Origin: Tabrizicola sp.
GTDB lineage: Bacteria > Pseudomonadota > Alphaproteobacteria > Rhodobacterales > Rhodobacteraceae
Length of the DNA stretch: 44,800 nt
Assembly: GCA_016792685.1 (NCBI GenBank)
Contig: JAEULQ010000127.1
Coordinates: 1 to 44,800, forward strand
Direction of reading: 5' to 3'
The position numbers and the translations under genes are program-made. This document shows, one piece after another, positions 5,346-25,178 of this stretch. Under the pieces are notes generated by a model. That model worked only from the letters and a program-made list of their open reading frames with translations. It was not told where the DNA came from and did no database searches. Numbering within the stretch: the stretch's first letter is position 1; each line of letters starts with the position of its first letter.

Positions 5346-5351
5346 CGACGC

Positions 5352-6350: not shown

Positions 6351-6374
6351 AAAGCCACTTGTCACTTGGGCTTT
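6351..6374. promoter_or_regulatory. Candidate LysR operator in the divergent promoter region
   Basis: AAAGCC and GGCTTT are inverted arms with a 12-base spacer, located between the LysR start and the binding-protein start. The size and the T/A-ended dyad fit LysR binding sites loosely. It is the only clear dyad in this spacer. Assignment is by position and symmetry only. Confidence 0.35.
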
Positions 6375-6424
6375 GGTGCGACCAACATCCTGTTTTATGC
6401 AATTGTTCACTTGCGGGGCAGGAA

Positions 6425-7525: not shown

Positions 7526-7607
7526 TCCCAAGCGGCAGGCGCCCATTTGCCATTCGGCCTGCCACGCGGGTCGAATGGCCGTTTCAACCTCAGCAAGGCC
7601 TTCCAAA

Positions 7608-7967
7608 ATGCCCGATCCGATCACCTTTTCCGCCACCGGCCCCGGTGACTTTCTCAGCGCACCGTCCCTCCCCCTGCCGACCGCCAAGCTGATCGAGGGG
7701 CAGCCCCTTGGCCTGGACCACGCCTATTTCACCCGCCCCGAGGCCAAATTGAAGGTCGGCATCTGGCGGTCGTCTGCCTATACAGAATGGTACGACAGCT
7801 ATCCCTGCGATGAATTCATGGTGGTTCTGGAAGGCGAAGTCACCGTTGAAAATGACAGTTTTTCCGCTACTTACGGGCCGGGCTCAGCCTTTCTCATTCC
7901 AAAAGGGTTTCAAGGATACTGGCGTCAACCGGTGGCGATGCTGAAATACTACGCCATCATCGAGTAA
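7608..7967 (+). CDS. Cupin-domain protein (DUF861 / ureidoglycine aminohydrolase-like)
   Basis: 119 aa if started at ATG 7608 (MPDPITFSATG); a start at 7575 would add 11 residues. A single cupin barrel is seen in YDSYPCDEFMVVLEGEVTVE and GPGSAFLIPKGFQGYW, matching the cupin_3 (DUF861) type. The metal ligands of the canonical motif are incomplete, since the usual first HxH is replaced by YDSYPCDE, so catalysis is uncertain. It follows the binding-protein gene by 82 bp and is joined to the GMC oxidoreductase with its stop directly before the next start. It probably belongs to the same catabolic operon, as an accessory enzyme or a binding protein. Confidence 0.8.
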   Translation: MPDPITFSATGPGDFLSAPSLPLPTAKLIEGQPLGLDHAYFTRPEAKLKVGIWRSSAYTEWYDSYPCDEFMVVLEGEVTVENDSFSATYGPGSAFLIPKGFQGYWRQPVAMLKYYAIIE

Positions 7968-9692
7968 GTGATGCGCGACGAAGGCAGCTACGACTACATC
8001 ATTGTCGGCGCCGGCTCGGCCGGGTCGGTGCTGGCCTATCGGCTGGGCGAAGACCCAAGGTTGCGCATCCTGGTGCTGGAGGCGGGTGGCGATGACCGGG
8101 CGGTGATCGTCCAGATGCCCTCGGCCTTGACGATCCCCATGAACACCAAGCGGTTCAACTGGGGGATGGAGACGGAACCAGAACCGGGCCTCGACGGTCG
8201 CCGCGTGAACCTGCCGCGCGGCAAGGGGCTGGGCGGGTCGTCCTCGATCAACGGCATGTGCTGGGTGCGTGGCAATCCAATGGATTACGAGCTCTGGGAG
8301 GCCTTGGGCGCCGAAGGCTGGCGCTGGTCAAACGTTCTGCCCTACTTCCAGCGGTTGGAGGCCGTGCGTGAAGGCGGGCCTTTGCGTGGCACCGATGGCC
8401 CCGTCCGGGTTACGCGGGGACCGGAAAAGAACCCGCTTTATCATGCGTTTGTGCAGGCGGCGGTACAGGCGGGATATGCCCGCAGCCCCAACATGAACCA
8501 ACGCCAGCACGAGGGCTTCGGCCCGATGGAGATGAATGTCGGCGAGGGCCGGCGGTGGTCCGCCTCGGTGGCCTATCTGCGCCCGGCCATGGCACGGGGC
8601 AATGTGCGCGTGCAGACCGGGGCGCTGGTGGAGAAGGTGTTGACCGACGGAAGGCGCACGACAGGCGTGCGGTTCCGGGTGAAGGGCGAAGTCCGTGAGG
8701 CAGTGGCGGGTCGCGAGGTGATCTTGTCGGCGGGGTCCATCATGTCGCCGGTGATTCTGAAACGATCGGGCATCGGGCCCGAGGCCGAACTGCGCGAACA
8801 TGGGATCGACGTGGTCCACCATGCGTCGCAGGTCGGCGAAAACCTGATGGATCACATGGAGCTGTATGTTCAGCAGGAATGCTCCCAACCAGTCAGCCTA
8901 TACCCGAACGTCAGCCTGTTCGGGAAAGCGAAGATCGGGGTCGAGTGGCTTCTGACCCACAAGGGCCTGGGCGCTACCAACCATTTCGAGAGCGGCGGCC
9001 ATATCCGCAGTCGGGCGGGTATCGTATATCCCGATATCCAGTACCATTTCCTGCCGCTGGCCATTTCCTATGATGGCAAGACGCTCGCCTCGGGTCATGG
9101 CTACCAGGTGCATGTGGGCACCAAGCGGTCGAAAAGCCGCGGCTGGGTGCGGCTGCGCGACGGCGACCCCGCAAGCCTGCCGCGCGTGCGCTTCAACTAC
9201 ATGACTCACGATGATGACTGGCTGGAATTCCGCGCCTGCATTGCTCATACGCGCGAAATCTTTGGCCAGGCCGCCCTTGCGCCCTATCGTGGGCGGGAAC
9301 TGGCCCCCGGTGACGCGGAGATCGACGATTTCCTGAAGCGCAAACTGGAAAGCGCCTATCACCCATGTGGAACCTGCCGGATGGGCACGGATGAAGCCGC
9401 CGTCACCAGGCCCGATGGCCGGGTGCGCGGGGTGGACGGGTTGCGTGTGATCGACGCCTCGGTCATGCCGCAGGCCACGGCGGGCGATCTGAACGCACCG
9501 ACGCTGGCCATGGCCGAGCGGATGGCTGACCTGGTGCGGGGGAAACACTTGCCCGAAGCAGTGGATGCCCCCCTGCTGGCCGATGCCGAATGGGCAACCC
9601 GACAGCGCAGCCCCAGCATCACCCGCGACTACGCCACGGACCGGTCAGCGCTGCGCGAGGCGCTTTTGGCCAATGCGCGCGGCACAGCCTAG
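7968..9692 (+). CDS. GMC-family FAD oxidoreductase (choline dehydrogenase-like)
   Basis: 574 aa from GTG 7968 (573 from ATG 7971). The Rossmann motif YIIVGAGSAGSVLAYRL occupies residues 10-26. The GMC signature RGKGLGGSSSINGMCWVRG lies near residue 90, and HPCGTCRMG and DASVMPQATAGDLNAP mark the C-terminal signature region. Length and motifs fit choline dehydrogenase and other alcohol dehydrogenases of this family. The usual GNxNAP is GDLNAP here. The start follows the cupin stop with no gap. With the amine-type binding protein upstream and the trimethylamine-dehydrogenase-like enzyme downstream, oxidation of an amino alcohol or quaternary amine is a reasonable inference; a true BetA assignment is not proven. 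Confidence 0.87.
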   Translation: MMRDEGSYDYIIVGAGSAGSVLAYRLGEDPRLRILVLEAGGDDRAVIVQMPSALTIPMNTKRFNWGMETEPEPGLDGRRVNLPRGKGLGGSSSINGMCWVRGNPMDYELWEALGAEGWRWSNVLPYFQRLEAVREGGPLRGTDGPVRVTRGPEKNPLYHAFVQAAVQAGYARSPNMNQRQHEGFGPMEMNVGEGRRWSASVAYLRPAMARGNVRVQTGALVEKVLTDGRRTTGVRFRVKGEVREAVAGREVILSAGSIMSPVILKRSGIGPEAELREHGIDVVHHASQVGENLMDHMELYVQQECSQPVSLYPNVSLFGKAKIGVEWLLTHKGLGATNHFESGGHIRSRAGIVYPDIQYHFLPLAISYDGKTLASGHGYQVHVGTKRSKSRGWVRLRDGDPASLPRVRFNYMTHDDDWLEFRACIAHTREIFGQAALAPYRGRELAPGDAEIDDFLKRKLESAYHPCGTCRMGTDEAAVTRPDGRVRGVDGLRVIDASVMPQATAGDLNAPTLAMAERMADLVRGKHLPEAVDAPLLADAEWATRQRSPSITRDYATDRSALREALLANARGTA

Positions 9693-9701
9693 GCGGTCCG
9701 C

Positions 9702-11723
9702 ATGACCGCACAGCTCACACCGCAAACCGACCCGCGCCACGCCCTGCTGTTCCAGCCCCTTCGGATTGGCCCGGTCACGGCCCCCAACCGCTTTTACCAG
9801 GTGCCGCATTGCACCGGCGTCGCCGACCGAGCCCCCGAAGATGTTGCGGCGATGCGCGAGATGAAGGCGATGGGCGGCTGGGGGGTGGTCTGTACCGAGA
9901 ATATCGAGATCTCGGCCGATGCCGACATCTCGCCTTATCCCGCCTTGCGCTTTGCCGCCGACAGCGACATCGCTCGTCAGGCCCGGATGGCCGATCTTGT
10001 CCACCGCCACGGAGCCCTGGCCGGGGCGGAGTTGGCGCATATGGGCCTATACTCTGCCAATCGCACCTCGCGCCGCACCAGCATCGGACCCTCATCGCGC
10101 ATGCTGATCGAGGCGGTCGAACCCGTGCAGGCCCGCGCCATGGACAAGGCCGACATCCGAGCCCTGCGACTTGACCACAAGGCCGCCGCCCGGCGCGCTA
10201 GAGCGGCGGGGTTCGACATTGTCTATGTCTATGCCAGCCACAATCTTTCCATCGCAACACACTTCCTGTCCCGCCGTTTCAACGACCGGGGCGATGAATA
10301 CGGCGGCAGTCTGGAAAACCGCGCGCGACTGTTGCGAGAGTTGCTGCAAGACACGCACGAGGCAGTGGGCGACCGCTGCGCCGTGGCATTGCGCTTTGCG
10401 GTTGAGGAGTTCCTTGGCCCGGACGGGCTGACCCATGACGGCGAGGGCCGTGATGTGGTGGAATTGCTGAAAGACCTGCCCGATCTGTGGGATGTCAACC
10501 TGTCGGACTGGTCGAACGACAGCCAGACCGCGCGGTTTTCACAGGAAGCCTTTCAGGAACCCTATGTCCGCTTCGTCAAGACCGTCACCGGCAAGCCAGT
10601 TGTCGGGGTGGGCCGCTTTACCTCGCCCGACACTATGGCCGACCAGATCAAGCGCGGCGTCCTTGATCTGATCGGTGCGGCGCGACCATCGATCGCCGAC
10701 CCGTTCCTGCCGCGGAAGATCGCCGAAGGACGCAGCGACGACATCCGCGAATGCATAGGGTGCAATATCTGCCTGTCGTGCGAAAACAGTTTCGTTCCGA
10801 TCCGCTGCACCCAGAACCCCACCATGATGGAGGAGGGACGCAAGCTCTGGCACCCCGAGGTCATCCCTGCCCGCAGCAGCGACGACAGCGTCCTGATCGT
10901 CGGTGGCGGCCCGGCGGGGCTTGAAGCCGCGCTGTCGCTGGGTCGGCGCGGCCACTTCGTGACCTTGGCCGAAGCCGATGACAGTTTCGGCGGCCGTGTC
11001 AGCCGCGAGGCGCGCCTGCCGGGTCTTTCGGCCTGGGCGCGGGTGCGCGACTATCGCTTGGGGCAATTGGCCAAGTTGCCAAACGTCAGCCTGTTTCCCG
11101 CCAGCCGGATGCAATGCGACGACGTTCTGGGCTTTGGTGCTGCGCGTCTGGTCATCGCGACCGGAGCCCGCTGGCGTCGCGAACCGCTTGGCCGTGGCGG
11201 GCGGACGGCCGCCGCATTGCAGGCGCCGGTCCTGACCCCTGATGACATCATGGCGGGTCACTTGCCCCGCGGGCAGGTCTTGGTTCACGACACCGAAGGC
11301 GGCTATATCGGTGGCCTGGTCGCCGAGGCCTTGCAGGCCAACGGGGCCAAGGTCACCTTCTCGACGCCTGCGCTCAGCCATTGTGGCTTCCTTAGCCTGA
11401 CCCTGGAACAGCACCGAGCCCTGACACGGTTGGTGACGTTGGGGGTCACCTTGATTTCGTCCCATGATCTCATCGCGTTTGAGCCCGGGCTGGCCCGTTT
11501 GGCGCCGATATATGGCGCAGGGGCGCGAGAAATCCCGGCAGATCATCTGGTGCTGGTGGCGGACCGGATCCCCGATGACCGACTGGCGTTGGAGCTTCTG
11601 TCATCCCCGCAGCGGCTTCATTCTTCGGGGGTCCGCACGGTCGATCGTATCGGCGATTGCCTGGCCCCAGGCCTGATTGCCAATGCGGTCTATTCCGGCC
11701 ACCTGCTAGCGAGGGCGTTCTAG
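9702..11723 (+). CDS. Trimethylamine dehydrogenase-like Fe-S flavoprotein (OYE-family N-demethylase)
   Basis: 673 aa with three parts. Residues ~12-340 are an old-yellow-enzyme TIM barrel that binds FMN (RIGPVTAPNRFYQVPH; YGGSLENRARLLREL). Cys351, Cys354, Cys357 and Cys369 give the Cx2Cx2Cx11C pattern of the single [4Fe-4S] cluster of trimethylamine dehydrogenase. From ~390 an ADP/FAD-binding domain starts with VLIVGGGPAGLEAALSLG. Relatives demethylate tri- and dimethylamine, dimethylglycine or N-methylproline betaines, releasing formaldehyde. It lies 9 bp behind the GMC gene and is probably the last gene of the operon. The substrate cannot be read from the sequence; a methylated amine fits the cluster. 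Confidence 0.87.
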   Translation: MTAQLTPQTDPRHALLFQPLRIGPVTAPNRFYQVPHCTGVADRAPEDVAAMREMKAMGGWGVVCTENIEISADADISPYPALRFAADSDIARQARMADLVHRHGALAGAELAHMGLYSANRTSRRTSIGPSSRMLIEAVEPVQARAMDKADIRALRLDHKAAARRARAAGFDIVYVYASHNLSIATHFLSRRFNDRGDEYGGSLENRARLLRELLQDTHEAVGDRCAVALRFAVEEFLGPDGLTHDGEGRDVVELLKDLPDLWDVNLSDWSNDSQTARFSQEAFQEPYVRFVKTVTGKPVVGVGRFTSPDTMADQIKRGVLDLIGAARPSIADPFLPRKIAEGRSDDIRECIGCNICLSCENSFVPIRCTQNPTMMEEGRKLWHPEVIPARSSDDSVLIVGGGPAGLEAALSLGRRGHFVTLAEADDSFGGRVSREARLPGLSAWARVRDYRLGQLAKLPNVSLFPASRMQCDDVLGFGAARLVIATGARWRREPLGRGGRTAAALQAPVLTPDDIMAGHLPRGQVLVHDTEGGYIGGLVAEALQANGAKVTFSTPALSHCGFLSLTLEQHRALTRLVTLGVTLISSHDLIAFEPGLARLAPIYGAGAREIPADHLVLVADRIPDDRLALELLSSPQRLHSSGVRTVDRIGDCLAPGLIANAVYSGHLLARAF

Positions 11724-12014
11724 AGGGACGGTCAGGGCATCATCGCAGTCCGGCATCACAGGTGGCTTGGGAACTACCGTTGATGCGGATGCCGGTTTTG
11801 GCCCCGGAGTGGCTTCCACACAGGACGCGCCATGCGTATTGGTGCACATGACCAGAAACGCCTCGGGCTGCGCAGTCGCAGCCTTGCGCACCATTACTCA
11901 TCTTCCACGAACCGAAGCCTTGGCAAAAGGGATGGCAAGGACGCGCTGAAGGCCGATCTCGTCAAGACATCCGGAGTAGAGCGTACCGAACCGGGCCATC
12001 ACGACTGGTTCGAG
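11724..12014 (-). pseudogene. Possible decayed Asp/Glu/hydantoin racemase-superfamily gene
   Basis: Three consecutive minus-strand stretches in different frames or split by stops read like one broken gene. The first has EPVVMARFGTLYSGCLDEIG and QRVLAIPFAKA, ending at a TGA. The second has QPEAFLVMCTNTHGASCVEA, where CTNT resembles the second catalytic cysteine motif of PLP-independent racemases and maleate isomerases. The third, after a frame change, has TGIRINGSSQATCDAGLR, like the IN..QAT...ALR region that follows in such proteins. Frame breaks and a stop exclude a working gene. The family call is tentative because it rests on short motifs. Confidence 0.33.
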
Positions 12015-12041
12015 GGCTCTGCGTGAAATGGTTGACCAAGA

Positions 12042-12263
12042 ATGACCGATGCTTGAGGGGAGGCGGACGCGATCGTTGCCACGATCGAGGCGCGGATCCC
12101 GAGTGGGGTCGCCCGGCCCGGTACCTGCCAGGTCGAACGCAGGGTGGCTGAAGGATGCGGCGTCTCAGGTACGCCGGTCCGAGCTGCTCTTCTGCATCTG
12201 ATCGCCAAGGGGCTGACCAGTGAGAATGGCAGGGGTAGCGCCATGGTGCGGCAGCCTCCTGTA
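12042..12263 (+). pseudogene. GntR-family regulator relic (winged-helix part, nonsense mutated)
   Basis: ATG at 12042 opens MTDA and meets a TGA at 12054. Directly after the stop the same frame continues as EADAIVATIEARIPSG, RPG, ERRVAEGCGVSGTPVRAALL and AKGL, ending GRGSAMV, which follows the GntR winged helix-turn-helix step by step (GVSxTPVRxAL is the diagnostic part). The frame stays open to 12566, but the sequence beyond ~12263 does not resemble the FCD or UTRA effector domains, so that part looks scrambled. With the racemase-like relic on the other strand it makes up most of the 11724-12562 gap, which otherwise shows no intact gene. Confidence 0.55.
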
Positions 12264-12562
12264 TCGGCGGCACCAGACTGGCTTCTGGCGACGCAACCGA
12301 CATCCGCACAGGTGTTCATCCCTCCCGATCAGCAATTCGTCACGCGGATTCCCTTATGCATGCGGGGGGCGGTCAATGAACACACCGCAATGGCTGCAAG
12401 GGCGGTTGGCACACTGGACATTAGCCCGTCGGGTGCAAGCCCCAGTGCAACCATCGAGTTTCTGCAACACTCCGGGGTTCTTGGCAAAACTCTGCGGCAA
12501 TCCCCTTCCACGCTGCAATCCCCGCTGATAGCCTTTTGCGAAGCTAGAGTTCAGAGGGCGAC

Positions 12563-12889
12563 ATGAGAGACTTGAAAGCATCAACCGCAATGCTTGCGAT
12601 CCTTTTGGCGACGCCCTCCTTTGCCGAGCCGACCGTTGCGCTTGGTCTTTCGGTCAGCTTTGGCGGCGGCTCCCCCGCCCGGACCGGGATTTCGGCGCGA
12701 CTGCTGTCAGACAATCAGTCGGACCAGATGGTTGCGACCGGAGGCGTGACCTATTTCTTTGGCGGCGGCGGTTTTGGTGCCGACCTTGGCCTTGCCTACA
12801 ATCTCCGCAACGGGATCTCGGCGGGCCTGAGCTACGAATTCATCAGCAAACGCCCGCTCTTCAGCCTGAGCGCTGCCAATATCTGCTGA
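12563..12889 (+). CDS. Small exported protein, outer-membrane-like
   Basis: 108 aa; ATG at 12563 follows AGAGGGCGAC, a plausible ribosome site. Residues 1-21 (STAMLAILLATPSFA) form a Sec signal peptide with cleavage after SFA. The mature ~87 residues are rich in Gly, Ser and aromatic residues, with alternating patterns such as VALGLSVSFGGG, GGVTYFFGGGGFG and GISAGLSYEFISK, like short beta strands of an outer-membrane or periplasmic protein. No family is recognised. It stands alone between the decayed region and the large glycan-gene pair, on the same strand as the downstream gene, 36 bp ahead of it. Confidence 0.68.
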   Translation: MRDLKASTAMLAILLATPSFAEPTVALGLSVSFGGGSPARTGISARLLSDNQSDQMVATGGVTYFFGGGGFGADLGLAYNLRNGISAGLSYEFISKRPLFSLSAANIC

Positions 12890-12925
12890 TCCTGCGGCTT
12901 GGCCCGGTACGGGCGTTGACCGCAA

Positions 12926-15232
12926 ATGATCACCTGCTCTGCCTTCACCTGGTATCATCTGCCCCGCAGCGGTGGAACCGCGACAGCGCACTGGTGGCGC
13001 AGGGTTGTGTCCATGCATGGCCTGGAGATGATGATCGACCCCGATCACCTCGCCGCCAAGCATGACAACCACGCCACCCGACGCATTCGGGACCAGAGCT
13101 TCAAGACCGGCGGACGAATTTCATTGATGAATTTCAGGCGGCTACCGGCCTGGCTTGAAAGCAATTACCGGTTCGCTCGCGCTCAGGGCCTGGATGTCCC
13201 GGCAGAGCGCTATATTGGGGGCGAGTTCTTCAGCCTTCGGATGGGCCAATGGTGCCCCGCCGACTGGTGGCTTGACTATTTCAAGGCCAACCGGATGGAT
13301 CGGCTGCTGCCGGTTGAGCGGCTGGAGGATGCTTTGCGCGGTCTGCTGCTAAGCGAATTCGGGTTGACGGTTCCCGATGACCTGACACTTCACCGACTGA
13401 ACAGCAAGGACGCCAATACCCCACTCGCAGAGCCCTGGACGGACTGCGACTGGTCTGCTGCATTCCAGAAGAACCCGGTCTGGGCGACGATCGAACGCCA
13501 ACTTTATGACGAGACCGATGCCCGGCACGGTGGTCAAGATGCATCTCCGCCTAACGAACCATCAGGCGAGGCCATCATGACGGCCCAAAGAGCTTTGCGG
13601 CGCCCCGAACCTGTGGCGAGCACTGCGGACCCGATTGTCGGGCTGCTGAGCGAGGGCCACTTCACCAAGGCGCTTGCCTTGGCCATGCGGCGCATGCAGG
13701 ACGAGGGCGAAAGCCTGCAGGGTCACATCCAGATTGCCAACATCGAGATGCTCCTGGGTTTCCAGCCGCGGGCGCAACGAAGCTGGCGCAGAGCGTTGCA
13801 GCTGGAAGACGTTGCCGAGGCGCGACTGGGCCTGGGCATCTGCCTGTTCCAGGCGGGTCAGCTTGGCGAAGCTCTCGGACAGTTCCGGCAGGGCCTGGCG
13901 CTGGACGAAGACAGCCTTCCTCTTTTGACCTCTGCCAGCATTGCCAGCACGATGCTGGGCGATTTCGCCGCAGCCGCCCGATTTGCCGCACGGGCGCTGG
14001 TGATCGACCCGGACAACCCGGAGGCAATGCTGTGCAGCACCAGGGCCGAACAGGCGCTGGGCAATCTCTCGCGGGTCAGAAGGTTGATCCGCCAGCTCGA
14101 CCATCAGGGCTACAAGCCGGATGAAGTGGCCTTGCTGAAGGTCGCGCTCCACAGTGCCGACGATGACCATGCGACCGCATTGGCCACAGCGGCGGAGCTT
14201 TGCGAGGCGCATCCGGCGTCTCAGTCCTCGCTTGCGGCGTTCCGGACGGCTTTCCGGACGTTCAAGACCAATGCAGCGAGCTATGAGTTCGAGGAGCTTG
14301 CCGAAAGCCTGCTGCACCCGCCGGCCCAGGATTGCGTCTTGTCTCGCCCCGCGATGCCCGCAGGGTCAAGCAGCCCGGTGGATGTCATTGTTCCGGTCCA
14401 CAATGCATTGGAGGTGACCCTCCGGGCGATCAAGGCGGTCCTCGATCACGCAAGCCCGAGCCTCGGGCGGCTCATCCTGGTCGATGATGGAAGCAACGCG
14501 GACACGGCAAAAGCGCTTTCCAAAGTGGCAGCAATGTACCCGCAAGTGGTCCTGGTCGCTTGTCCCGTTCGGCAAGGCTTTACCAATGCCATCCGCGAAG
14601 GGCTGAAGCACAGTGACAGCGCCGCCTTTCTGGCCCTGAACAGCGATACGATCGTGACCGGTGGCTGGCTTGAGAAGATGAATGCCGGTCTGCATGCGGC
14701 TGCTGACATCGCCATGATCGGTCCCTTGTCGAACAATGCCGCCTGGCAGAATTACGGCCCGGTCTTCGATGAGACGGGCGAATACCGCTCGGACCCGATC
14801 CCCGATGACGAAGCCCAGGCCGAAGTCGTGGCCCATATCGAGGCTCTTGGATCAGGACGCCTCGCCGAAACTGCGATGGTGCATGGCTTTTGCGCCCTTG
14901 TTGACCGCAAGAAATACGAAGCCGTTGGCGGGCTTGATGAGACGGCCTTTCCCGAGGGCTATGGCGAGTTTCAGGACCTTTCCTATCGGCTGCGCGCCAA
15001 CGGGAACCGCCTTTTCGTCACGCTCGACACGGTTGTCTTCCACGAACAGGGGGCAAGCCTTGCACCTGTGGTTCGCGCCGCGCTGTCGCTGTCGGGGCGA
15101 AAGATGCTTTATGAACGATACTCGGCCTTCAACTATCTCTTTGTGGAGGCCGCCTGCGCCGAGCACCGCGATACGGGTGCGCTGCGCAAGGCGCTGGGGC
15201 GCCGCCTCGTGCGCAGCACGGTGAGCGGCTAA
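12926..15232 (+). CDS. Sulfotransferase-like / TPR / GT2 glycosyltransferase fusion protein
   Basis: 768 aa. Residues ~8-140 resemble a small sulfotransferase-fold domain: HLPRSGGTATAHWW is like the PAPS 5'-phosphosulfate loop, and DRLLPVERLEDALRGLL is like the C-terminal part of such domains. Residues ~235-460 are TPR-like helical repeats (e.g. EARLGLGICLFQAGQLGEAL). Residues ~485-745 are a GT2 glycosyltransferase with VDVIVPVHNALEVT, LVDDGS (519-523) and LNSDT (571-575) as the metal/nucleotide motif. ATG 12926 is the first start after a stop but lacks a good ribosome site, so the start is uncertain. It converges on the 1415-aa gene with a 23-bp gap. Likely role: transfer of a sugar, and perhaps sulfate, in surface glycan synthesis. 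Confidence 0.78.
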   Translation: MITCSAFTWYHLPRSGGTATAHWWRRVVSMHGLEMMIDPDHLAAKHDNHATRRIRDQSFKTGGRISLMNFRRLPAWLESNYRFARAQGLDVPAERYIGGEFFSLRMGQWCPADWWLDYFKANRMDRLLPVERLEDALRGLLLSEFGLTVPDDLTLHRLNSKDANTPLAEPWTDCDWSAAFQKNPVWATIERQLYDETDARHGGQDASPPNEPSGEAIMTAQRALRRPEPVASTADPIVGLLSEGHFTKALALAMRRMQDEGESLQGHIQIANIEMLLGFQPRAQRSWRRALQLEDVAEARLGLGICLFQAGQLGEALGQFRQGLALDEDSLPLLTSASIASTMLGDFAAAARFAARALVIDPDNPEAMLCSTRAEQALGNLSRVRRLIRQLDHQGYKPDEVALLKVALHSADDDHATALATAAELCEAHPASQSSLAAFRTAFRTFKTNAASYEFEELAESLLHPPAQDCVLSRPAMPAGSSSPVDVIVPVHNALEVTLRAIKAVLDHASPSLGRLILVDDGSNADTAKALSKVAAMYPQVVLVACPVRQGFTNAIREGLKHSDSAAFLALNSDTIVTGGWLEKMNAGLHAAADIAMIGPLSNNAAWQNYGPVFDETGEYRSDPIPDDEAQAEVVAHIEALGSGRLAETAMVHGFCALVDRKKYEAVGGLDETAFPEGYGEFQDLSYRLRANGNRLFVTLDTVVFHEQGASLAPVVRAALSLSGRKMLYERYSAFNYLFVEAACAEHRDTGALRKALGRRLVRSTVSG

Positions 15233-15255
15233 GTCTGGCCCTTTGCGGCAATCAC

Positions 15256-18200
15256 TCAGTTTGCTGGCGACTGGAACAGACCTTCCTCGACCACGTCTAT
15301 GGAGCTGTTGACCTTCTGTGCGCCCAGCCGCGCGGGGGGCTGGGGCCCTTTCCGGATGCAGATCATCTGGTCAGAGAACTCGATCGACCGAATGCTGCGC
15401 AACAGGCTTTCCGGAAAAGCCACGCCGAACCTACCGGCGAAGGCTGCAAGCCGTTCGGCCACGCCGGTCCCGTTGCGCCAGTGTTCGTGATTGAACAGAT
15501 CGGTCAGAGTGCGGAAGAAGGCCAATGAGGAAAGCGTCGCGTCGAGCCCGCCTTCATGTTCCTCCAAGTAGCTGGGGTGCAGGTCTTCCACGATATAGAG
15601 ACCATCGTCTGCGAGCAGCGGGAACAGGACACTGAAACCGCGAATGATGTCGCGCGAGCGACGGGAGCCATCGTCGATCACCAGATCAAGTGCTGAACAC
15701 CGCTGCGCGATCTTCAGGACCAAGATTGGCGAAGCTGCGTCACAGACCAAGACGACGATACGCGGGTCGTCAAAGGTCAGCCTGGCACAGCCCGGATCAA
15801 TATCGCAGCCGACGAAGATGCGGCCGTTTTGGAAGTACTTCGACCAATGCTCAAGCGAACCGCCCTGCGCTACGCCTACTTCCAGCATTCGGACGGGCTG
15901 GTTTCGAAGGTCAGCAAGCAGTCGATCATAAGTCCCGAGGTTTCCGCGCCACCTGTCCGAGCCCCGCCCGTCTTGCCCCTTTTGCAAGGCGATCAGCGCC
16001 GTTCCAGGTTCCGGCTCTTCTTGGGCCAGATCGACAGGTGCCAAGTCTTGATAGACTGTCTCCCAGTCCATGGCGCCTATCAATTCCTGGGCGGGGGCAA
16101 TGGCCGCACGCCTGTCCCACAGCATCACCTGCTTTCCATGCTGGGCCGCCAAGAGACCAAACGCCCGTTCGACCACATGTTCCGGCTGTCCGTCGCCGTC
16201 CTGATGCGGCACAAAGATTTCCTGGGGGTATAGCTCGCCTAGACCCGCAAAGAACCGGGGGCGACACCAGAACATCGTGCCGGCAAAGAAGCCCCAGGTT
16301 TCAGGTGCAGGGCCATGCAGGAGGTGAAGCGCCGAATGGCACTGCATTTCATGCATGGGCCCGTCGAGATAAAACCTGCGCGGACCGGCAAGGACCAGAT
16401 CCGGGGCTGAAGCGAAAGCGCTTAGGTAGGCGGCGACGGTTTCGGAGTTACCGAGCAGCCCCTCCAGGCTCAGGCGGCGCCAAGCATCGTGTCGACCATC
16501 ACTTCGCTTGCTGTGCAGTTTGCAGACAAGATCAAAGTGCTTGAGCTCCTCCAGCAGCGCAAGAAACGGCGCCACGTCGCGCCCGACATTGGGAAGGTTG
16601 CGGATGACAGCCGTCGGAAAGCGGGCCTTTATCCGGGGGCCGAAGTTGCTTTCCGGAGCGAGAGTGACAAACAGGCTGAAGGGCTGTGGCACGCCGGACA
16701 GGGTACGTTCAAATTCGGGCCACTGGTGTTCGTGGAAGAGGTGAAGTGCGACGGCAAGGCTCTGGCTCGGTTTGCCGGCGGCCTCGGAACCGATGCCGGT
16801 CCACGATGCCGGTCTCAGGCAGTGACGTGCTTCAATGCGCTCCAGCCAGAGACGGGGATGGCCTTCAAACCGTGTCGCCAGTTCTGCCGTCTGCCCGCGC
16901 CAGCGATGCGAAAGCTGCTCCCTGATCCCTGCAAGATCGGGCGGTGTCATGCCGGGGTGATCATTCTGGGCAAGCCCGGCCAGCAGCGCGGGGGTCACCT
17001 CCATGGCCGCCAGCCCAAGAAAGTTCCTGACCTTCCCGATCACTTCGGCGGGTTCATTCACGATTTCGTCGTGGAAGAGGACAAGCATCTGTTCCGGGGG
17101 AATGTGCTTCGCCCAGGTCCGTAGGGTCTGCAGATAGTCGGTTCTGGCAAGGTTATCCGCCGACACACAGCAGGCGGCCACCTGAGGTTCGGTGGGCTGC
17201 GTGATGCCCTGCATCTGCAATTCGTGCAGTGCGCCCGAGATTGCGCGATCGACAGGATCCCGAAGGATGAAGATCACCTTGACCTTGGGCATCACGCGAT
17301 GGATTTCGGCGACCGCCCTGTCATCCAGCGTCGCGTAGGCCGGAGTGAAATCGCAGACGATCTTTTCTTCAGGGGCGCCTTCCAGCGTCGCGGCATAATT
17401 CTCCCAAGACTGGACGGGCGGAAAGGCATGCCGAAGCAGCATGCGGACCCGACCGCTTCGGACTTCCGCGTCCGCCTCGCGCACATAGTCAGTCTGCAGG
17501 ACCGAAAGGGCCTGGTGCTGGCGGAAGAACCCGGCGCTTTCGGTCTGATCGAACTGGTGGAACTCTTTGATCGGGCTGGGCCAGACATCGGAAAATCTTT
17601 GAAGCGCCGCATGAAGCCAGGTCGTGCCGCCCCGCTGCGCCCCGATGCAGAGAAGGTCGGGAAGCCTGGTCTGCCGTTTGAACTGCTCCAAGTGATCGAT
17701 GCAGTCGGTCAGACGGGTAACGGTGAAGTCAGGCCGGGGTATCTCTGCACCCCCATCGGCGGGCAGGACGTCCAGTCCATCGATCCCGGTTGGTGCGTTG
17801 ATCAGGATCGACACACGACCTTGATCAAGATCGAACGGCACAACATCATCGGTTGGCCCTGCAGACTGGCAATGCGACCGCAGGAGGGCAATGCCGCCAG
17901 CCCCGTCGGGCAACTGAGGCGGCGAAAACTCCACCAGATAAAGTCCCGGTCGCAGCGACGGCTGCGACTTGCCGGACAGGATCACAGGTTCAAGACCTGC
18001 AAGCACGCCGTCGTCCACCAAGCGGCGAACGGCGCGCATCTGACCGAAGAACGCAGGCGGCGACCCGGCGCTGGGCCAGGATCGCACCCAGTTCCGGAAC
18101 CGGAAATGATCACTCCCCGCCAGGGAATTCGGCGCAAGATCCCCCGCGCTGCGATGGTGCCAGAAGGCAAGCTCTTCAGGATGGACCGGAATCGGTCCCA

Positions 18201-19503
18201 GTTCCGCAGCGCGTCGATTGAAATGCCAGTCCCCCAAAGCAGGAAGGCCCTCGTGGAACGCTCCGATCTGGTCGAAGAGCTCTCTCCGGAAAAGAAAGGA
18301 AATCGGCGGAAACTGATTGGAGGTTTCGAGATCTTCCGGGCCAATCAGATCGAGTGCAGGCATCGGATCGTCTTCCCGCACCGTCACATAGCCCGAACCG
18401 TCCCAGGTCTCATGCAGGATCCGGCTTTTGCAGACGGCTGCATTTGCCCCGGTCTCATGCAGGAGTTCGGTCATTCGGGTCAGAAAGTCCGGAGACCAGC
18501 TGTCGTCATCGTCGTGGATGACGACGAAAGCGCTGTCCTTGCGCGCAATGGCAAGGTTCGAGGCCGCTTCCATCCCGCACTGCCGGGTATTGTGGTTGAT
18601 TTCGATGCGATCGCGAAAGAGGTGGCGGTAGGGCGCGACTTCGGCCTCGACGAGATGCGGCGGGCCACCATCGTTCACCAATTGCAGGGCCCAATTCGTG
18701 TAGGTCTGTGACAGGACGCTGCGCAAGGCTCGGGCGAGCAGGTGGTGGCGCCACCTCGTCCGCATCACGACCAGCACAAGACCCCGGTCGGTCGGTGGCG
18801 GTTTCCCCGGTCCCGCAGGCTGCTCCTGCTGGCCTTCGTTTCGATGGTGCCAGAGCGCCGGATCGACGAGTGCTGCAGCATCCACTGCACGGTGCTGTCC
18901 TTCCGCCAGGCCACAGAAATCGCCGATCCGGCCGAAGGTCAGCACCGGATCACGCATCAGATCGGCATGCCGAACCGTAAGCATCGGCAAATCACCGGCG
19001 TCACGTTCGATCGCGCGCTGATGTTCCTCCCAGATTGCTTCAGCCAGCGGTCCGGGCATCTGGTTGCGACTGGCCAATGACTGCATAACGTCACCGCGGC
19101 CGCGCAGCAGTCTGACAATGCGCAGCGGCGTCTGTCCGGCTGCGGCGACGGCCTTCCAAAGCGGGATCAGCAGGCTGGACCGCGGATCCTTGACGACCCA
19201 ATGGCCCTTTGCGGCGATTTCGGCGATGGCGATCTTGCTGAATCTGTCGATGCAGCTTTGCGTTTCGGGCCACAAGATCCAATCGGGGGGCAGTGGTCCC
19301 GCCGTCCTGTGCCAGGTACGTCCGAACTGAGCCAAGAGCCGTTCCTGGGATTGCCAAACCTCTGCATGTTCCCAATGACCGTGCGGGTTGCCTGTCTCGG
19401 GCTTGCGGTCGACGTTCTCGCCAAGGTTTGCGCCCATCATATGGAGCCCCCTCGCCACCAGCGAGGTGCCAGATCGGTGCATTCCCACAACGAGTATGAT
19501 CAT
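15256..19503 (-). CDS. Five-module glycan enzyme: sulfotransferase - GT2 - sulfotransferase - RgpF-like - methyltransferase
   Basis: 1415 aa in one uninterrupted frame. Module 1 (1-220): sulfotransferase with GMHRSGTSLVARGL and KDPRSSLL. Module 2 (241-460): GT2 glycosyltransferase with RALRSVLSQTY, VNDGG and the acidic HDDDDSW at 330-336. A linker of ~150 residues follows. Module 3 (615-890): second sulfotransferase with IGAQRGGTTWLHAAL and FILRDPVDRAISGALHE. Module 4 (915-1130): rhamnan-synthesis-F-like domain with NVGRDVAPFLALL, VCKLHSKRS and GTMFWCRP. Module 5 (1185-1385): class I SAM methyltransferase with LEVGVAQGGSLEHW, CDIDP and VIDDGSRRSRD, like cephalosporin-hydroxylase-type methyltransferases. 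No signal or membrane segment is seen, so it should act in the cytoplasm. It probably extends and then sulfates and methylates a polysaccharide or glycan. Confidence 0.85.
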   Translation of the reverse strand: MIILVVGMHRSGTSLVARGLHMMGANLGENVDRKPETGNPHGHWEHAEVWQSQERLLAQFGRTWHRTAGPLPPDWILWPETQSCIDRFSKIAIAEIAAKGHWVVKDPRSSLLIPLWKAVAAAGQTPLRIVRLLRGRGDVMQSLASRNQMPGPLAEAIWEEHQRAIERDAGDLPMLTVRHADLMRDPVLTFGRIGDFCGLAEGQHRAVDAAALVDPALWHHRNEGQQEQPAGPGKPPPTDRGLVLVVMRTRWRHHLLARALRSVLSQTYTNWALQLVNDGGPPHLVEAEVAPYRHLFRDRIEINHNTRQCGMEAASNLAIARKDSAFVVIHDDDDSWSPDFLTRMTELLHETGANAAVCKSRILHETWDGSGYVTVREDDPMPALDLIGPEDLETSNQFPPISFLFRRELFDQIGAFHEGLPALGDWHFNRRAAELGPIPVHPEELAFWHHRSAGDLAPNSLAGSDHFRFRNWVRSWPSAGSPPAFFGQMRAVRRLVDDGVLAGLEPVILSGKSQPSLRPGLYLVEFSPPQLPDGAGGIALLRSHCQSAGPTDDVVPFDLDQGRVSILINAPTGIDGLDVLPADGGAEIPRPDFTVTRLTDCIDHLEQFKRQTRLPDLLCIGAQRGGTTWLHAALQRFSDVWPSPIKEFHQFDQTESAGFFRQHQALSVLQTDYVREADAEVRSGRVRMLLRHAFPPVQSWENYAATLEGAPEEKIVCDFTPAYATLDDRAVAEIHRVMPKVKVIFILRDPVDRAISGALHELQMQGITQPTEPQVAACCVSADNLARTDYLQTLRTWAKHIPPEQMLVLFHDEIVNEPAEVIGKVRNFLGLAAMEVTPALLAGLAQNDHPGMTPPDLAGIREQLSHRWRGQTAELATRFEGHPRLWLERIEARHCLRPASWTGIGSEAAGKPSQSLAVALHLFHEHQWPEFERTLSGVPQPFSLFVTLAPESNFGPRIKARFPTAVIRNLPNVGRDVAPFLALLEELKHFDLVCKLHSKRSDGRHDAWRRLSLEGLLGNSETVAAYLSAFASAPDLVLAGPRRFYLDGPMHEMQCHSALHLLHGPAPETWGFFAGTMFWCRPRFFAGLGELYPQEIFVPHQDGDGQPEHVVERAFGLLAAQHGKQVMLWDRRAAIAPAQELIGAMDWETVYQDLAPVDLAQEEPEPGTALIALQKGQDGRGSDRWRGNLGTYDRLLADLRNQPVRMLEVGVAQGGSLEHWSKYFQNGRIFVGCDIDPGCARLTFDDPRIVVLVCDAASPILVLKIAQRCSALDLVIDDGSRRSRDIIRGFSVLFPLLADDGLYIVEDLHPSYLEEHEGGLDATLSSLAFFRTLTDLFNHEHWRNGTGVAERLAAFAGRFGVAFPESLLRSIRSIEFSDQMICIRKGPQPPARLGAQKVNSSIDVVEEGLFQSPAN

Positions 19504-20044
19504 TCCGGCGGTAAACTCGACTTCCCAGGCCGCACAACAAGAAAGACAAAACCTGTCCGGTTCAAGCCTTGTCGCAGCGCAATTGCTTGATGAGCCTCAT
19601 CCTCGCCGCCTTCTGGTGTCGCGCCGGGTTTTCTTTGTGGCCGCACGGCAGAGCACGGCTGCTGATCCTGATCGACCCCGAGATGCAGTGACCGGCGCAG
19701 CCTGCAGGCACGATGGGCGTGCCAGCGGTCTTCTGCTCAACGGCCATCCGCAGTGCCATTCGGATAAGGTCTTGTTCCAGTCGCTGCAGTGTCGGGCGAG
19801 AAGCCGCAGCTCGGGGATGTGGCGAAGGCGATGGGTGGGGAGTGGGAGGATGTGGGGCCGGGGGTGGTGGAGGCGGTTCGGGTGAGGGTGCAGGAGGCCG
19901 CGCAGAAGGCGGTGGCGGAGGGGGAGGAGCGGGTGTTTGGCGGGCCGTTGGTGAGGTGAGGGCTTCTCTGAAACGTGCTGTTTCCAGCACAGACTTCAGG
20001 CGATATGATGGAAGCATGAGATCAATCAATATGGGAAACGAACC
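19504..20044. other. Gap with gene debris and no intact gene
   Basis: This 541-base stretch contains the upstream region of the 1415-aa gene (minus strand) and a short plus-strand open frame from about 19771 to a TGA at 19958-19960. That frame reads GEKPQLGDVAKAMGGEWEDV then EAVRVRVQEAAQKAVAEGEE and ends FGGPLVR. It has the strong G/C third-position bias of a real gene of this genome but no start, so it looks like a 3' gene remnant; a solute-binding-protein tail is a weak possibility. A small hairpin (GTGCTG, TTTC, CAGCAC at 19975-19990) follows. The Pro- and Gly-rich open frames here are shadows of this remnant. Confidence 0.35.
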
Positions 20045-20269
20045 TTGAGAAAGTCGGAAGTTCGTGGAGCGTTCCCTTCACTCTTAGAGGCATGGATAGT
20101 TGAGACCAACCAAGATCGAGACCAACTTGGCGACTTAAGGTTCGGCACATTCTATGCTTGGCTTCGTGATCGCTATCCACACTACACACGATTTCGGTCA
20201 ACTATGGGTGCCGATGAAGACCTAGAACTTTGGTTTGATGAAGAGACTGGCCAGCTTTGGAGGAGATGA
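20045..20269 (+). CDS. Small hypothetical protein (AT-richer islet)
   Basis: 74 aa starting at TTG 20045; no ATG exists in frame after the preceding stop until deep in the gene, and the TTG overlaps a four-base run ending an upstream five-codon ATG frame. Residues such as LRFGTFYAWLRDRYPHYTRF are rich in aromatic and charged residues and look like a folded small protein; the end is DEDLELWFDEETGQLWRR. No family is recognised. Base composition is clearly more AT-rich than the surrounding genes, like the convergent gene that ends 20 bp away. Likely recent acquisition. Confidence 0.55.
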   Translation: MRKSEVRGAFPSLLEAWIVETNQDRDQLGDLRFGTFYAWLRDRYPHYTRFRSTMGADEDLELWFDEETGQLWRR

Positions 20270-20288
20270 AACCGATGACGTTGTTGCT

Positions 20289-20999
20289 TTACTTTTTCTT
20301 GGGCTTCTGATCGGTTGGCAGTCTCTCAAAAAGTGCTACCTGGACGTCGCCTGTAGCATCCGTTTGCATCAGTACGGCAAACACAATTTCCTCATCAATC
20401 TTCACCCAGTGACTGCTTAGTAGCTTAGTCAGTTTTGACAGCCAGTCACCTATTTCCTTGAACAATCGATCATGGTCGTTCAAGAGAGTTCTATCTCTTG
20501 ATGCGTGCAAGTATTTCCCGCACACACGGTCATAGAGTACGCCAAATTCTTCCTTGGTAAGGGCTCCATCTACCTCAACCATAACCCATGCGTCCTCGAC
20601 TTTTTCATTGCTTCGTGACAAAGCCTTCGGAAAGAATTCAGGGTTCACTCGACCTAGAAACTTCATGATCGTCGTAGCGTTCCATGCGTTCTGAACCAAT
20701 TTATTCTGCAGCTCGATTCCTCTGTGATAATGAGCAGTAATCGATGCAAGCATTACTAACTCAAAGCACTTTCTAAGCTGCAAAAGGCAGAGTTCGATAT
20801 CACTCTCGCGATAGCCTGTTAAAGATGAAGCGTTCGCGTGTTTTTCGAGTGCGCGAGAAATGACGTTCACGCGTTCCTTGATTTCCTGCATGAAGCTGGA
20901 ATAGACCTCCAGTGCTCTCTCAGGTGACTTCGTCATATTGAAACATCCTTTCGCCAATAACGTGTGAACTGGTTCTAGGGAGTCACTTTTCGCATTCAT
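20289..20999 (-). CDS. Hypothetical protein of the AT-richer islet
   Basis: 236 aa from ATG at 20999. Mostly helical, charged sequence with many Lys, Asn and Ser residues and codons ending in A or T, unlike every neighbour. Segments such as ALEVYSSFMQEIKERVNVIS, SDIELCLLQLRKCFELVML and LNDHDRLFKEIGDWLSKLT suggest an all-alpha protein. It has no signal peptide or membrane span and ends in a basic tail (PTDQKPKKK). No known domain is recognised. It converges on the 74-aa gene. The foreign base composition and isolated position suggest horizontal transfer; a defence or plasmid-type accessory role is possible but there is no motif to support it. Confidence 0.68.
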   Translation of the reverse strand: MNAKSDSLEPVHTLLAKGCFNMTKSPERALEVYSSFMQEIKERVNVISRALEKHANASSLTGYRESDIELCLLQLRKCFELVMLASITAHYHRGIELQNKLVQNAWNATTIMKFLGRVNPEFFPKALSRSNEKVEDAWVMVEVDGALTKEEFGVLYDRVCGKYLHASRDRTLLNDHDRLFKEIGDWLSKLTKLLSSHWVKIDEEIVFAVLMQTDATGDVQVALFERLPTDQKPKKK

Positions 21000-21427
21000 G
21001 GTTTAGGTCACAGCTGCGCGCCTTGATATACTGGAGCAGACCGGGCCGCCACTCTTCTAATAGGAAGGCAGATGGAAGCGTGTCGGCAGTTGGGCGCTCT
21101 AGGGCACCAGACCATGATTTCGGCTAGGCACCCAATATTCGACAGTGCCCCTTGGCCCGGAATCAAGGCGCTTGCGCCGCCGGGCCGCGCCCTCCCCACT
21201 GCCCGGCCACGGGCCGGGCGTTCTTCGCGGAAACCCTCCACTGGAGGGTTTCTGATCGCTCATCACCCCCCCGGGAGGGCGCTCTTGACGCGTCTCGGGC
21301 AGAACTGCAGTGGGAGGGGTGGCACCATAAAGTGCCTCGATCGACCGTGGCTGCGCCCGCCCGAGGGAGGGCGCGGCCCTCGTGTTCGGCAGGGGGAGTC
21401 GGGCTGAAGCCCGACCTACGGGGCGCG
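21000..21427. repeat. Intergenic repeat cluster, copy A (inverted partner at 24983-25154)
   Basis: No gene is seen in this 428-base gap. From ~21156 (CCCGGAATCAAGGCGC) to ~21391 it matches, in reverse orientation, the sequence at 24983-25154, sharing blocks such as the CCCCCGGGAGGGCGC and GTGGGAGGGG segments. Copy A also carries extra palindromes absent from B: GCCCGGCC/GGCCGGGC (21201-21219) and a perfect 10-bp stem GAAACCCTCC/GGAGGGTTTC (21230-21252). A REP-like hairpin GTCGGGCT-GA-AGCCCGAC followed by CTACG closes the cluster at 21398-21420. Confidence 0.65.
21398..21420 (+). repeat. REP-like hairpin with CTACG tag
   Basis: GTCGGGCT and AGCCCGAC form an 8-bp stem around GA (21398-21415) followed by CTACG. 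The same architecture with a different stem sequence occurs at 24930-24952. It sits just beyond the 3' end of tal (minus strand). Confidence 0.5.
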
Positions 21428-22081
21428 TTACAGGATCTTCTGACCGGTCTTGGCCCAGTCCTTCATGAACTGCTCGAGGCCTTTGTCGGTCAGCACATGG
21501 CTCGCAAGGGCCTTGATCACGTTCGGGGGGGCGGTCACGACATCGGCGCCGATCATCGCGCAGTCCTTGACGTGGTTGGCGCTGCGGATCGAGGCGGCGA
21601 GGATCTGGGTCTGGAAGTCGTAATTGTCATAGATCGTGCGGATGTCGCCGATGAGGTCGAGGCCGTCGAGGTTGATGTCATCAAGCCGCCCGATGAAGGG
21701 GGAGATGAAGGTCGCCCCCGCCTTGGCGGCAATCAGCGCCTGGTTGGCCGAGAAGCAGAGGGTGACGTTGACCATGAAGCCCTCGCCCGTCAGGACCTTG
21801 CAGGTCTTGAGGCCGTCCCAGGTCAGCGGCACTTTCACCGCGATGTTCGGGGCGATGGCGGCCAGCTTGCGGCCCTCGGCGATCATCTCGTCGGCGGTGA
21901 GGGCGACGACTTCGGCCGAGACGGGGCCTTTGACGAAGGAGCAGATTTCCTTGGTGACCTCGATGATATCGCGGCCGGATTTCAGGATGAGCGAGGGGTT
22001 GGTCGTGACCCCGTCCACCATGCCGAGGTCATGAAGCTCGCGGATGGCATCCACATCGGCGGTGTCGACAAAGAATTTCAT
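21428..22081 (-). CDS. tal: Transaldolase (small, fructose-6-phosphate aldolase-like subfamily)
   Basis: 217 aa, the length of the short TalC/MipB-type transaldolases. It starts [15 protein letters not shown] and has GVTTNPSLI, the phosphate-site region, and the Schiff-base lysine in [13 protein letters not shown] (near residue 86), as well as [19 protein letters not shown] and SPFIGRLDD. It moves a dihydroxyacetone unit between sugar phosphates in the non-oxidative pentose phosphate pathway. It is divergent from priA with a 79-base spacer, an arrangement I recall in related genomes. Transaldolase versus fructose-6-phosphate aldolase activity cannot be decided from the motifs alone. Confidence 0.92.
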
Positions 22082-24982: not shown

Positions 24983-25154
24983 TGCCGCAACACAGGGCTG
25001 CGCCCGACCTCGGGTGGGCGCAGCAACGCTGGTTCTAGGCGCTTTATCTCTCAGCCCCTCCCACCGAAGTTCTGCGGGCTGCCGTTGCAAACGCGCCCTC
25101 CCGGGGGGAGGTCGGGCGCTGCCCGGCGGCGCATTCGCGCCTTGATTCCGGGCG
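24983..25154. repeat. Intergenic repeat, copy B (inverted relative to 21156-21391)
   Basis: The reverse complement of this stretch aligns by eye with copy A: CCCGGAATCAAGGCGC, TGCGCCGCCGGGC, CCCCCGGGAGGGCGC, GCAGAACT, GTGGGAGGGG, ATAAAG and TGGCTGCGCCC-like blocks in the same order. Copy B is shorter and lacks the nested palindromes of copy A. It occupies most of the 276-base gap between the lipoprotein gene and the 96-aa gene. Confidence 0.6.
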
Positions 25155-25178
25155 AAGGAAGGGACGAGGCAGGGTTGG

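Follow-up and report, generated by a model that had tools for sequence, protein, structure and literature searches.

A five-module chain in Tabrizicola sp. that combines two cassettes of glycan-modifying domains

The 44,800-nucleotide stretch of Tabrizicola sp. DNA analysed here (the window) encodes a protein in which a sulfotransferase-like domain (ST1), a GT2 glycosyltransferase, a second sulfotransferase (ST2), half of an RgpF-like domain and a methyltransferase fold follow one another in a single chain. As judged from sequence comparison, this chain is a composite of two older cassettes that are found apart elsewhere, namely, ST1-GT2-beta-ST2 (aa 1–893) and RgpF half-methyltransferase (aa 906–1407). 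With moderate confidence, we propose that the protein is an acquired composite and a probably cytosolic enzyme that would assemble and sulfate a short surface glycan, the role of the methyltransferase being doubtful.

Results

Integrity of the gene

The gene is one ATG-initiated frame of 1415 codons that runs from 19503 to 15256 of the window on the minus strand (Table 1); the plus-strand frame across the same positions contains stops. The coordinates and the single continuous frame given in an earlier note on this DNA are correct, and the minus-strand orientation and the beta-rich segment at aa 476–609 were absent from it. The ATG at 19503 matches the N-termini of two relatives (L004 and L005). 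GC3 is 0.60–0.73 by segment, the lowest value being that of a 30-residue linker, and 0.62–0.77 in 100-codon blocks; given the open frame and the fairly even GC3, a pseudogene or a frameshift join was dismissed. It also seems highly improbable that an assembly error joined two genes between ST2 and the RgpF half: the assembly is fragmented (136 contigs, 88.9% complete) and the same junction was not found in a second genome, but the join is in frame and located at a domain boundary, GC3 is alike on either side of it, direct or inverted repeats of at least 22 bp are absent from 4800–21500, and L004 and L006 have additional modules fused near the same point. The five-module fusion looks real and rare.

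Table 1 Coordinates of the gene, its modules and adjoining features in the window.
Feature	Positions	Strand	Basis or remark
Whole gene	15256..19503	minus	1415 aa, ATG at 19503, stop at 15256
Module 1, aa 1–225, sulfotransferase-like	18829..19503	minus	PF13469, 28.5 bits, cut-off 27
Module 2, aa 241–475, GT2 glycosyltransferase	18079..18783	minus	PF00535, 57 bits; Foldseek
Beta-rich segment, aa 476–609	17677..18078	minus	predicted model; no Pfam match
Module 3, aa 610–895, heparan-sulfate 3-O/N type sulfotransferase	16819..17676	minus	PF13469, phmmer, Foldseek
Module 4, aa 905–1140, RgpF-like, PF05045 C-terminal half only	16084..16791	minus	60.1 bits
Module 5, aa 1171–1400, MycE-type SAM/metal sugar O-methyltransferase fold	15304..15993	minus	Arg1281 replaces His
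Convergent neighbour, TPR-GT2 protein, 768 aa	12926..15232	plus	43% identity to G202 homologue
3' remnant, BrnA-antitoxin-like gene	19793..19961	plus	longer in L137–L140; Pfam on L137 copy

The two sulfotransferases and the glycosyltransferase

The five modules and their order, as proposed in the earlier note, are borne out by Pfam, the six-frame search and fold comparison, with the qualification that RgpF is represented by its C-terminal half only and the methyltransferase falls below the Pfam cut-off. The diagnostic residues are retained in both sulfotransferases and in GT2; in the methyltransferase, Arg1281 stands in place of MycE His278. Retention of such residues throughout the five modules, which the note had named as support for an active megaenzyme, therefore breaks down at the methyltransferase.

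In the six-frame search, ST1 scores 28.5 bits against Sulfotransfer_3 (PF13469; cut-off 27) and carries the hallmarks of a PAPS-dependent sulfotransferase, that is, the PAPS loop GMHRSGTS (7–14) with the PSB Arg (R10), KDPR (105–108), and, at the 3'-phosphate site, R134 together with S142, the latter being the PB Ser. All of these are invariant across the four proteins that share the aa 1–893 core (see below). When two stand-alone relatives are included, KDPR, R134 and S142 are constant in all six sequences and R10 in five, with Asn in L013; E45, a candidate for the base, is invariant in the six sequences. That ST1 is a degenerate or regulatory domain devoid of sulfotransferase activity, so that ST2 alone sulfates, strikes us as unlikely. 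Its score barely exceeds the cut-off, no catalytic base is assigned, the single PDB sequence match touching it is weak (4gox, E 0.003) and straddles its end, and the loop Arg is replaced in one of the two stand-alone relatives; against this stand the constancy of the PAPS loop, KDPR, R134 and S142 over the four core proteins and the retention of all these residues except R10 in the stand-alone relatives.

The GT2 module is matched by Glycos_transf_2 (PF00535) at aa 246–411 (57 bits, cut-off 23.3) and combines this GT-A profile with DxD-type aspartates: DDDD (331–334) and GDW (424–426), of which DDDD and D425 are invariant in the four core proteins. Its best Foldseek matches are SpsA structures (1h7l/1qg8). 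The segment that follows, aa 476–609, has no Pfam match and is present, with weak conservation, in the alignment of the four core proteins; strands are predicted between residues 507 and 599 (block pLDDT 55–72 over 501–600) in a model of residues 1–900 that is of modest quality (pLDDT 65.9, pTM 0.40, four sequences).

ST2 is module 3 of the chain. The PF13469 profile matches two stretches of the protein, the better one at aa 617–832 (91.3 bits, cut-off 27), within module 3; over the whole protein, PF13469 and PF00685 score 91.3 and 65.3 bits, respectively. The motifs comprise GAQRGGTTW (621), KE (646–647), R748 and S756, and R624, K646-E647, R748 and S756 are invariant in the four core proteins. 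Module 3 is similar to heparan sulfate 3-O-sulfotransferases and NDST in sequence (E 2.2e-8 to 3-OST-3, 1t8t, in phmmer), in fold (Foldseek matches 1t8t, 1vkj, 1nst and 8ccy), in the KE motif and in the PAPS sites. NDST is itself a fused enzyme with two activities, whereas module 3 is bacterial and is fused to GT2 and to a second sulfotransferase. Along with its profile match, module 3 possesses the residues expected of a PAPS-dependent polysaccharide sulfotransferase, namely, a PSB Arg/Lys, a PB Ser and, as the base, Glu. The features described for such enzymes are PSB Arg/Lys, PB Ser and a Glu/His base (PMC11625862), and the conserved sulfotransferase residues of the four core proteins (PSB Arg/Lys, PB Ser, Glu base) agree with them.

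The RgpF half and the methyltransferase fold

The RgpF profile (PF05045; 60.1 bits, cut-off 25) matches aa 911–1123 through its positions 267–502 of 503 only, so that the domain is not full-length; module 4 is 51% identical to its counterpart in L084. The closest solved structures to module 5 in both sequence and fold are MycE and SpnK (PDB 3ssm, 8ia9), with which it has the metal ligands in common. It retains the SAM loop (1207–1216) and the Asp/Glu metal ligands of MycE-type enzymes (D1278, E1306, D1307), but Arg1281 (codon CGT, 15661–15663) occupies the position of the catalytic His278 of MycE, and the module is fused to four further ones. Among the 18 of 21 rows that could be compared in this column (the query and 17 relatives, the three RgpF-only rows having no letter there), Arg is found in the query alone and His in 17 of 17 relatives. 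Methyltransf_24 matches aa 1207–1307 with 19.2 bits, below the cut-off of 26.3, as against 37.6 for the closest relative. In MycE, H278 is described as involved in deprotonating the 2-OH of the acceptor (PMC10117803). Because the base is replaced by Arg1281, the fold probably no longer methylates via the MycE mechanism; it may be inactive or altered, or may retain a sugar- or SAM-binding role. The hydropathy profile of the protein has one peak above 1.6, reaching 1.91 at residues 1249–1267, within the methyltransferase core.

Two cassettes that occur apart

Of 138 relatives, 80 loci were kept, the further 58 being outside the counts given here. The ST-GT2-beta-ST core (aa 1–893) forms one chain in three of the 80 (L004, L005 and L006), all of them MAGs labelled as different groups; in these proteins, the first ~893 residues have the same order as in the query, at 38–50% identity. 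Beyond this point they differ from the query, lacking both RgpF and the MycE-type fold: the L005 protein stops soon past residue 893, and those of L004 and L006 continue into another methyltransferase family, Methyltransf_25/11. One of the ten scanned neighbours of these three loci is a sugar gene (a UDP-sugar dehydrogenase near L005), the others including ribosomal protein S2, KARI and CoA transferase, a context that counts against the reading proposed here. The second cassette (906–1407) is found, at 49% identity and with the RgpF half preceding the methyltransferase as in the query, in another genome of the family, G202 (L084/P0002), next to a TPR-GT2 gene; unlike the query, the G202 protein has no sulfotransferase domain, has its own C-terminal GT2 and possesses the catalytic His.

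The five-module order was found in none of the 80 kept loci, none of 31 other genomes of the genus (all candidates scored), and none of 294 other genomes of the family (with no more than two candidates scored in each, among the matches listed); none of the 142 plasmid records that gave matches covered 80% of the query. Nor did searches of the accessible literature on fused or clustered glycan enzymes bring up a protein of this domain order, which is weak evidence of its absence; within this scope, a described precedent for the order was not found.

The earlier note had also taken the fusion to imply 'processive, assembly-line-like' building of a sulfated and methylated glycan, which is not supported: the chain consists of two cassettes that occur apart, and ST1-like and GT2-like domains are separate adjoining frames in four of the 80 loci (L013, L016, L018 and L040; both frames are Pfam-supported in L016, and the ST1-like frame of L013 is below the cut-off, 22.0 vs 27 bits). 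A line in which all five modules are active and the glycan is made in sequence is, in our estimation, quite unlikely. All five folds are recognisable, the SAM loop and metal ligands are retained, and fused transfer and methylation do exist, as in the three-domain A064R protein of chlorovirus PBCV-1, described as combining two rhamnosyltransferases with an O-2 methyltransferase that acts on the sugar just added (PMC7826918); conversely, the change from His to Arg is unique among the 18 aligned methyltransferase rows, the Methyltransf_24 score lies below the cut-off whereas the closest relative reaches 37.6, and RgpF is half a domain. The likeness to A064R is one of described architecture, and that protein is viral and 638 aa long, with a methyltransferase described as functional and no sulfotransferase domain described (PMC7826918). 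Because the chain is made of two older cassettes and a key methyltransferase residue has seemingly been lost, it probably falls short of a complete assembly line.

Genomic context and PAPS supply

The gene is part of a ~15-kb segment that was not found at this site in the eight genus genomes compared (the PriA match being present in 27 of 32). At the corresponding site, the DUF484 and transaldolase genes adjoin in two genomes (L141, L144), about 2 kb of different DNA is present in four (L137–L140), and the arrangement differs in two (L142, L143). We take the BrnA-like remnant to mark where the acquired segment ends on the right. An RNA gene at this conserved 170-bp stretch (19.79–19.96 kb) was rejected, the stretch being the 3' end of the BrnA-like gene; Rfam gave two sub-threshold matches over 4800–22000, none on the stretch. 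Phage origin was likewise rejected (seven weak records of 50,697).

Over an alignment of 522 columns, the convergent TPR-GT2 neighbour shares 43% identity with its counterpart next to the RgpF-MT-GT2 gene in G202. The idea that the N-terminal 225 aa of this neighbour form a sulfotransferase domain was rejected (hhalign probability 0.2%). A defence role was rejected as well, PADLOC having given nothing beyond a weak TPR match, in the neighbour. The surroundings in G202 include a 1964-aa cadherin-like/Ig protein, HlyD-type proteins and a SecA-like gene, and on a Cereibacter plasmid an RgpF-GT2 gene is located near flagellin, as is a weak match to a sulfotransferase; the ST-GT2-ST core was not seen in G202 (at most two candidates scored) or in that plasmid.

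A search of this 88.9% complete assembly, run without a built-in positive control, found no APS kinase, which is present in 30 of 32 genus genomes. Contig C88 starts inside the syntenic block, and the expected place of the gene falls off the contig end. True loss was dropped as the contig end explains the absence, although this is not proven, one relative (G703) also being without the gene. PAPS supply in the cell is likely.

Discussion

Under the reading that we prefer, the GT2 module would add one sugar from a nucleotide sugar through its DxD aspartates, and a second one, perhaps a deoxyhexose, may be attached by the RgpF-like half or with its help. ST2, and probably ST1 as well, would pass sulfate from PAPS onto hydroxyls of the new sugars, on an acceptor that the TPR-GT2 partner would supply or prime. 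Simple hydropathy suggests that the enzyme is probably cytosolic. The fusion would hold the steps together, and a processive line is not implied.

Candidates for the acceptor are a lipid-linked polysaccharide and a surface protein that is exported (adhesin or flagellin). A surface protein may be the target, as suggested by one genome (G202) and one plasmid. That the product is instead part of a capsule, O-antigen or exopolysaccharide is a tangible possibility, if not the favoured one: an Enterobacteriaceae plasmid has separate genes for RgpF, a similar methyltransferase and GT2, with genes for dTDP-rhamnose synthesis and ABC permeases alongside, and the description of a marine Vibrio includes a sulfated capsule together with RgpF, sulfotransferases and PAPS genes (PMC11641403), but Wzx/Wzy, Kps and nucleotide-sugar gene products are lacking among the 20 window proteins scanned, and the TPR-GT2 homologue in G202 adjoins an adhesin/export cluster. 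A more specific scenario, which we consider distinctly improbable, is that of a machine for sulfating bacterial glycoproteins, in which the GT2 flanked by two sulfotransferases decorates a large adhesin or flagellin before export, together with TPR-GT2, and the methyltransferase fold, once a catalyst, now serves to bind sugar or SAM and so to position the glycan.

The core is present in four genomes of differently labelled groups, and its joins show possible shuffling of cassettes at variable genome sites. Sulfotransferases for bacterial polysaccharides are described as poorly known (PMC11641403). Two sulfotransferases tied to a glycosyltransferase suggest that the acceptor is a sugar made by the same chain, and specificity could therefore be tested with one expressed protein.

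Domain architecture of the fused protein

The protein P0001 (1415 aa) is encoded by a single minus-strand frame, confirming the continuous frame described in the earlier note; the plus-strand frame over the same interval contains stops. Third-position GC is 0.69 in the first sulfotransferase-like module (ST1), 0.71 in GT2, 0.73 in the second sulfotransferase (ST2), 0.69 in the RgpF-like part and 0.72 in the methyltransferase (MT). The five modules appear in Pfam in the order that the note had proposed (Sulfotransfer, Glycos_transf_2, Sulfotransfer, RgpF, Methyltransf_24), with the Methyltransf_24 match below the cut-off (19.2 vs 26.3 bits) and the RgpF match spanning only the C-terminal half of the profile. 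The AlphaFold model of residues 1-900 reveals a sixth piece of the protein, a beta-rich segment (about 507-599), but domain placement is unreliable given the mean pLDDT of 65.9, pTM of 0.40 and four sequences; in a second model, of residues 890-1415, the mean pLDDT is 77.9. The 50 top-ranked Foldseek matches listed include SpsA, other GT2-like enzymes, 3-O-sulfotransferases and NDST for the first half of P0001; for the second half, the list is headed by SpnK and MycE, a sugar O-methyltransferase of solved structure. The RgpF part had no credible match to any solved structure.

Features of the window and of compared loci
Feature	Location	Strand	Description
P0001	15256-19503	-	ATG 19503, stop 15256
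Arg1281 codon	15661-15663	-	CGT
Rfam gabT match	17417-17476	-	Inside P0001 frame; below threshold (34.3 vs 45 bits), likely chance
DUF484 gene match	to 4,873 and 4,944		Left flank
Putative inserted segment	4950-19790		~15 kb: LysR, solute-binding protein, cupin, GMC oxidoreductase, FMN oxidoreductase, TPR-GT2, P0001
BrnA-antitoxin-like remnant	19793-19961		Last ~170 bp of the gene
236-aa frame	20289-20999	-	Adjoins inserted segment; no Pfam or PADLOC match; low GC (20001-21000, 46%)
Intergenic stretch	21149-21423, 24986-25167		Common to relatives, resembling another stretch inverted; perhaps a dispersed repeat
Transaldolase match	from ~21,430		Right flank
G202 cluster (L108, contig C3)	25-18117		SecA-like protein, two HlyD-type proteins, 1964-aa protein, RgpF-MT-GT2, TPR-GT2
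Cereibacter sphaeroides KD131 plasmid (L162)	4834-12920		Flagellin, flaF, flbT, DUF1217 gene, then RgpF-GT2 gene

Two cassettes in a rare fusion

A scan of genome contigs, from which 80 of 138 relatives were kept, yielded three loci where ST1, GT2 and ST2 share one frame. In a Comamonadaceae MAG (L005, 46% identity), the frame stops shortly past this core, and in a MAG labelled Kuenenia (label as given; L004, 50%) and a Pseudomonadota MAG (L006, 38%), the core is followed by Methyltransf_25/11, a methyltransferase family different from that of module 5 of P0001. The ST1 and GT2 relatives at four loci (L013, L016, L018 and L040) are encoded in separate frames that neighbour each other. Of 398 genomes in the phylum, a core profile (E 1e-60; at most two candidates per genome) matches one, the window's own. 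The family search covered 295 genomes, with no more than two candidates scored per genome; beyond the window's genome, its best match is an 836-aa RgpF-MT24-GT2 frame of genome G202, which aligns with residues 906-1407 at 49% identity. Given that the core and the RgpF-MT part are seen apart, P0001 consists of two cassettes joined near residue 895-905. Within the genus (E 1e-15), 22 of the 31 other genomes match P0001 in the methyltransferase part only, except for one ST1-like match in G683. The fusion is rare within the genomes searched.

Catalytic residues

Across the four core proteins, R10, S11, K105, D106, R108, R134 and S142 of ST1, D278, D331-D334 and D425 of GT2, and R624, K646, E647, R748 and S756 of ST2 are invariant; of two stand-alone ST1 relatives, one retains the Arg of R10 and the other carries Asn at this position. 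The ST1 and ST2 residues fit the features described in part of a review (PMC11625862), namely, PAPS-loop Arg/Lys, a phosphate-site Ser and a Glu base for the NST/3-OST kind. These three modules keep their diagnostic residues, and MT keeps the SAM loop, D1278, E1306 and D1307, but the retention in all five modules that the earlier note set as a test fails at the MT His: position 1281 is Arg in P0001 vs His in all 17 aligned relatives, among them two copies elsewhere in the window's own genome. Arg1281 aligns with the His of the MycE DDGSH motif, three residues past the second Asp, which we take to be D275, so that this His would be H278. MycE H278 takes part in 2-OH deprotonation according to a figure legend (PMC10117803), and the active site is given in a passage of another paper as Tyr208, Asp275, His278 and Asp304 (PMC9275233). 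Because of Arg1281 and the sub-cut-off score, module 5 is probably impaired for known methyltransferase chemistry; the Methyltransf_24 score of its close relative in G202 is 37.6 bits.

Sulfate donor

The window's genome contains two Sulfotransfer_3 matches, both in P0001. APS kinase was not found in its assembly (88.9% complete); 30 of the 32 genus genomes carry the gene, as do the genomes of L004, L005 and L006. A syntenic block of G706 matches contig C88 of the window's assembly from its first base, ~5 kb off the expected kinase position, and since C88 begins inside this block, the absence is most simply explained by an assembly gap. True loss is also conceivable, the relative G703 likewise being without the gene; its PriA is 93% identical to that of the window.

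Genomic site

The site was compared in eight genus genomes (L137-L144). The DUF484 and transaldolase matches are less than 200 bp apart in L141 and L144 and ~2 kb apart in L137-L140, and the arrangement differs in L142 and L143; the site is variable within the genus. In L137-L139, DUF484 is followed by a frame of 180 aa whose L137 copy is BrnA-antitoxin-like according to Pfam; L140 carries a frame of 215 aa that shares this end. The retention of only the end of this gene in the window suggests that the segment carrying P0001, which starts 290 bp from its right edge, was inserted here, replacing the front of the BrnA-antitoxin-like gene.

Neighbours and possible biological role

The TPR-GT2 gene adjoins P0001 in convergent orientation and shares 43% identity, over 522 alignment columns, with the TPR-GT2 gene adjoining RgpF-MT-GT2 of G202. 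In the G202 cluster, one HlyD-type protein has a GAF match and the other a peptidase M50 match below the cut-off, and the 1964-aa protein contains Big_9/cadherin-like/PKD domains; the cluster looks like giant-adhesin export plus glycosylation. In G273, a methyltransferase relative (assigned by its match to the methyltransferase, Pfam giving GT2 families only) lies within an MT-GT2-GT2 frame adjoining an ABC exporter gene. On the KD131 plasmid, a second gene after the flagellin cluster matches Sulfotransfer_3 below threshold (21.4 vs 27 bits) and possibly forms a flagellin-modifying pair with RgpF-GT2. An Enterobacteriaceae plasmid carries RgpF, methyltransferase and GT2 as individual genes adjoining those for dTDP-rhamnose synthesis. 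By analogy, the context of the relatives suggests a surface glycan, which in the case of P0001 might be carried by an exported protein and might include rhamnose-like sugars.

The processive, assembly-line synthesis of a sulfated, methylated glycan put forward in the earlier note is unproven. Fused glycan enzymes are already known as a kind, and PBCV-1 A064R, as described in part of PMC7826918, is of the same kind as P0001; P0001 differs in its two-sulfotransferase core and in the new join of this core to the RgpF-MT cassette.
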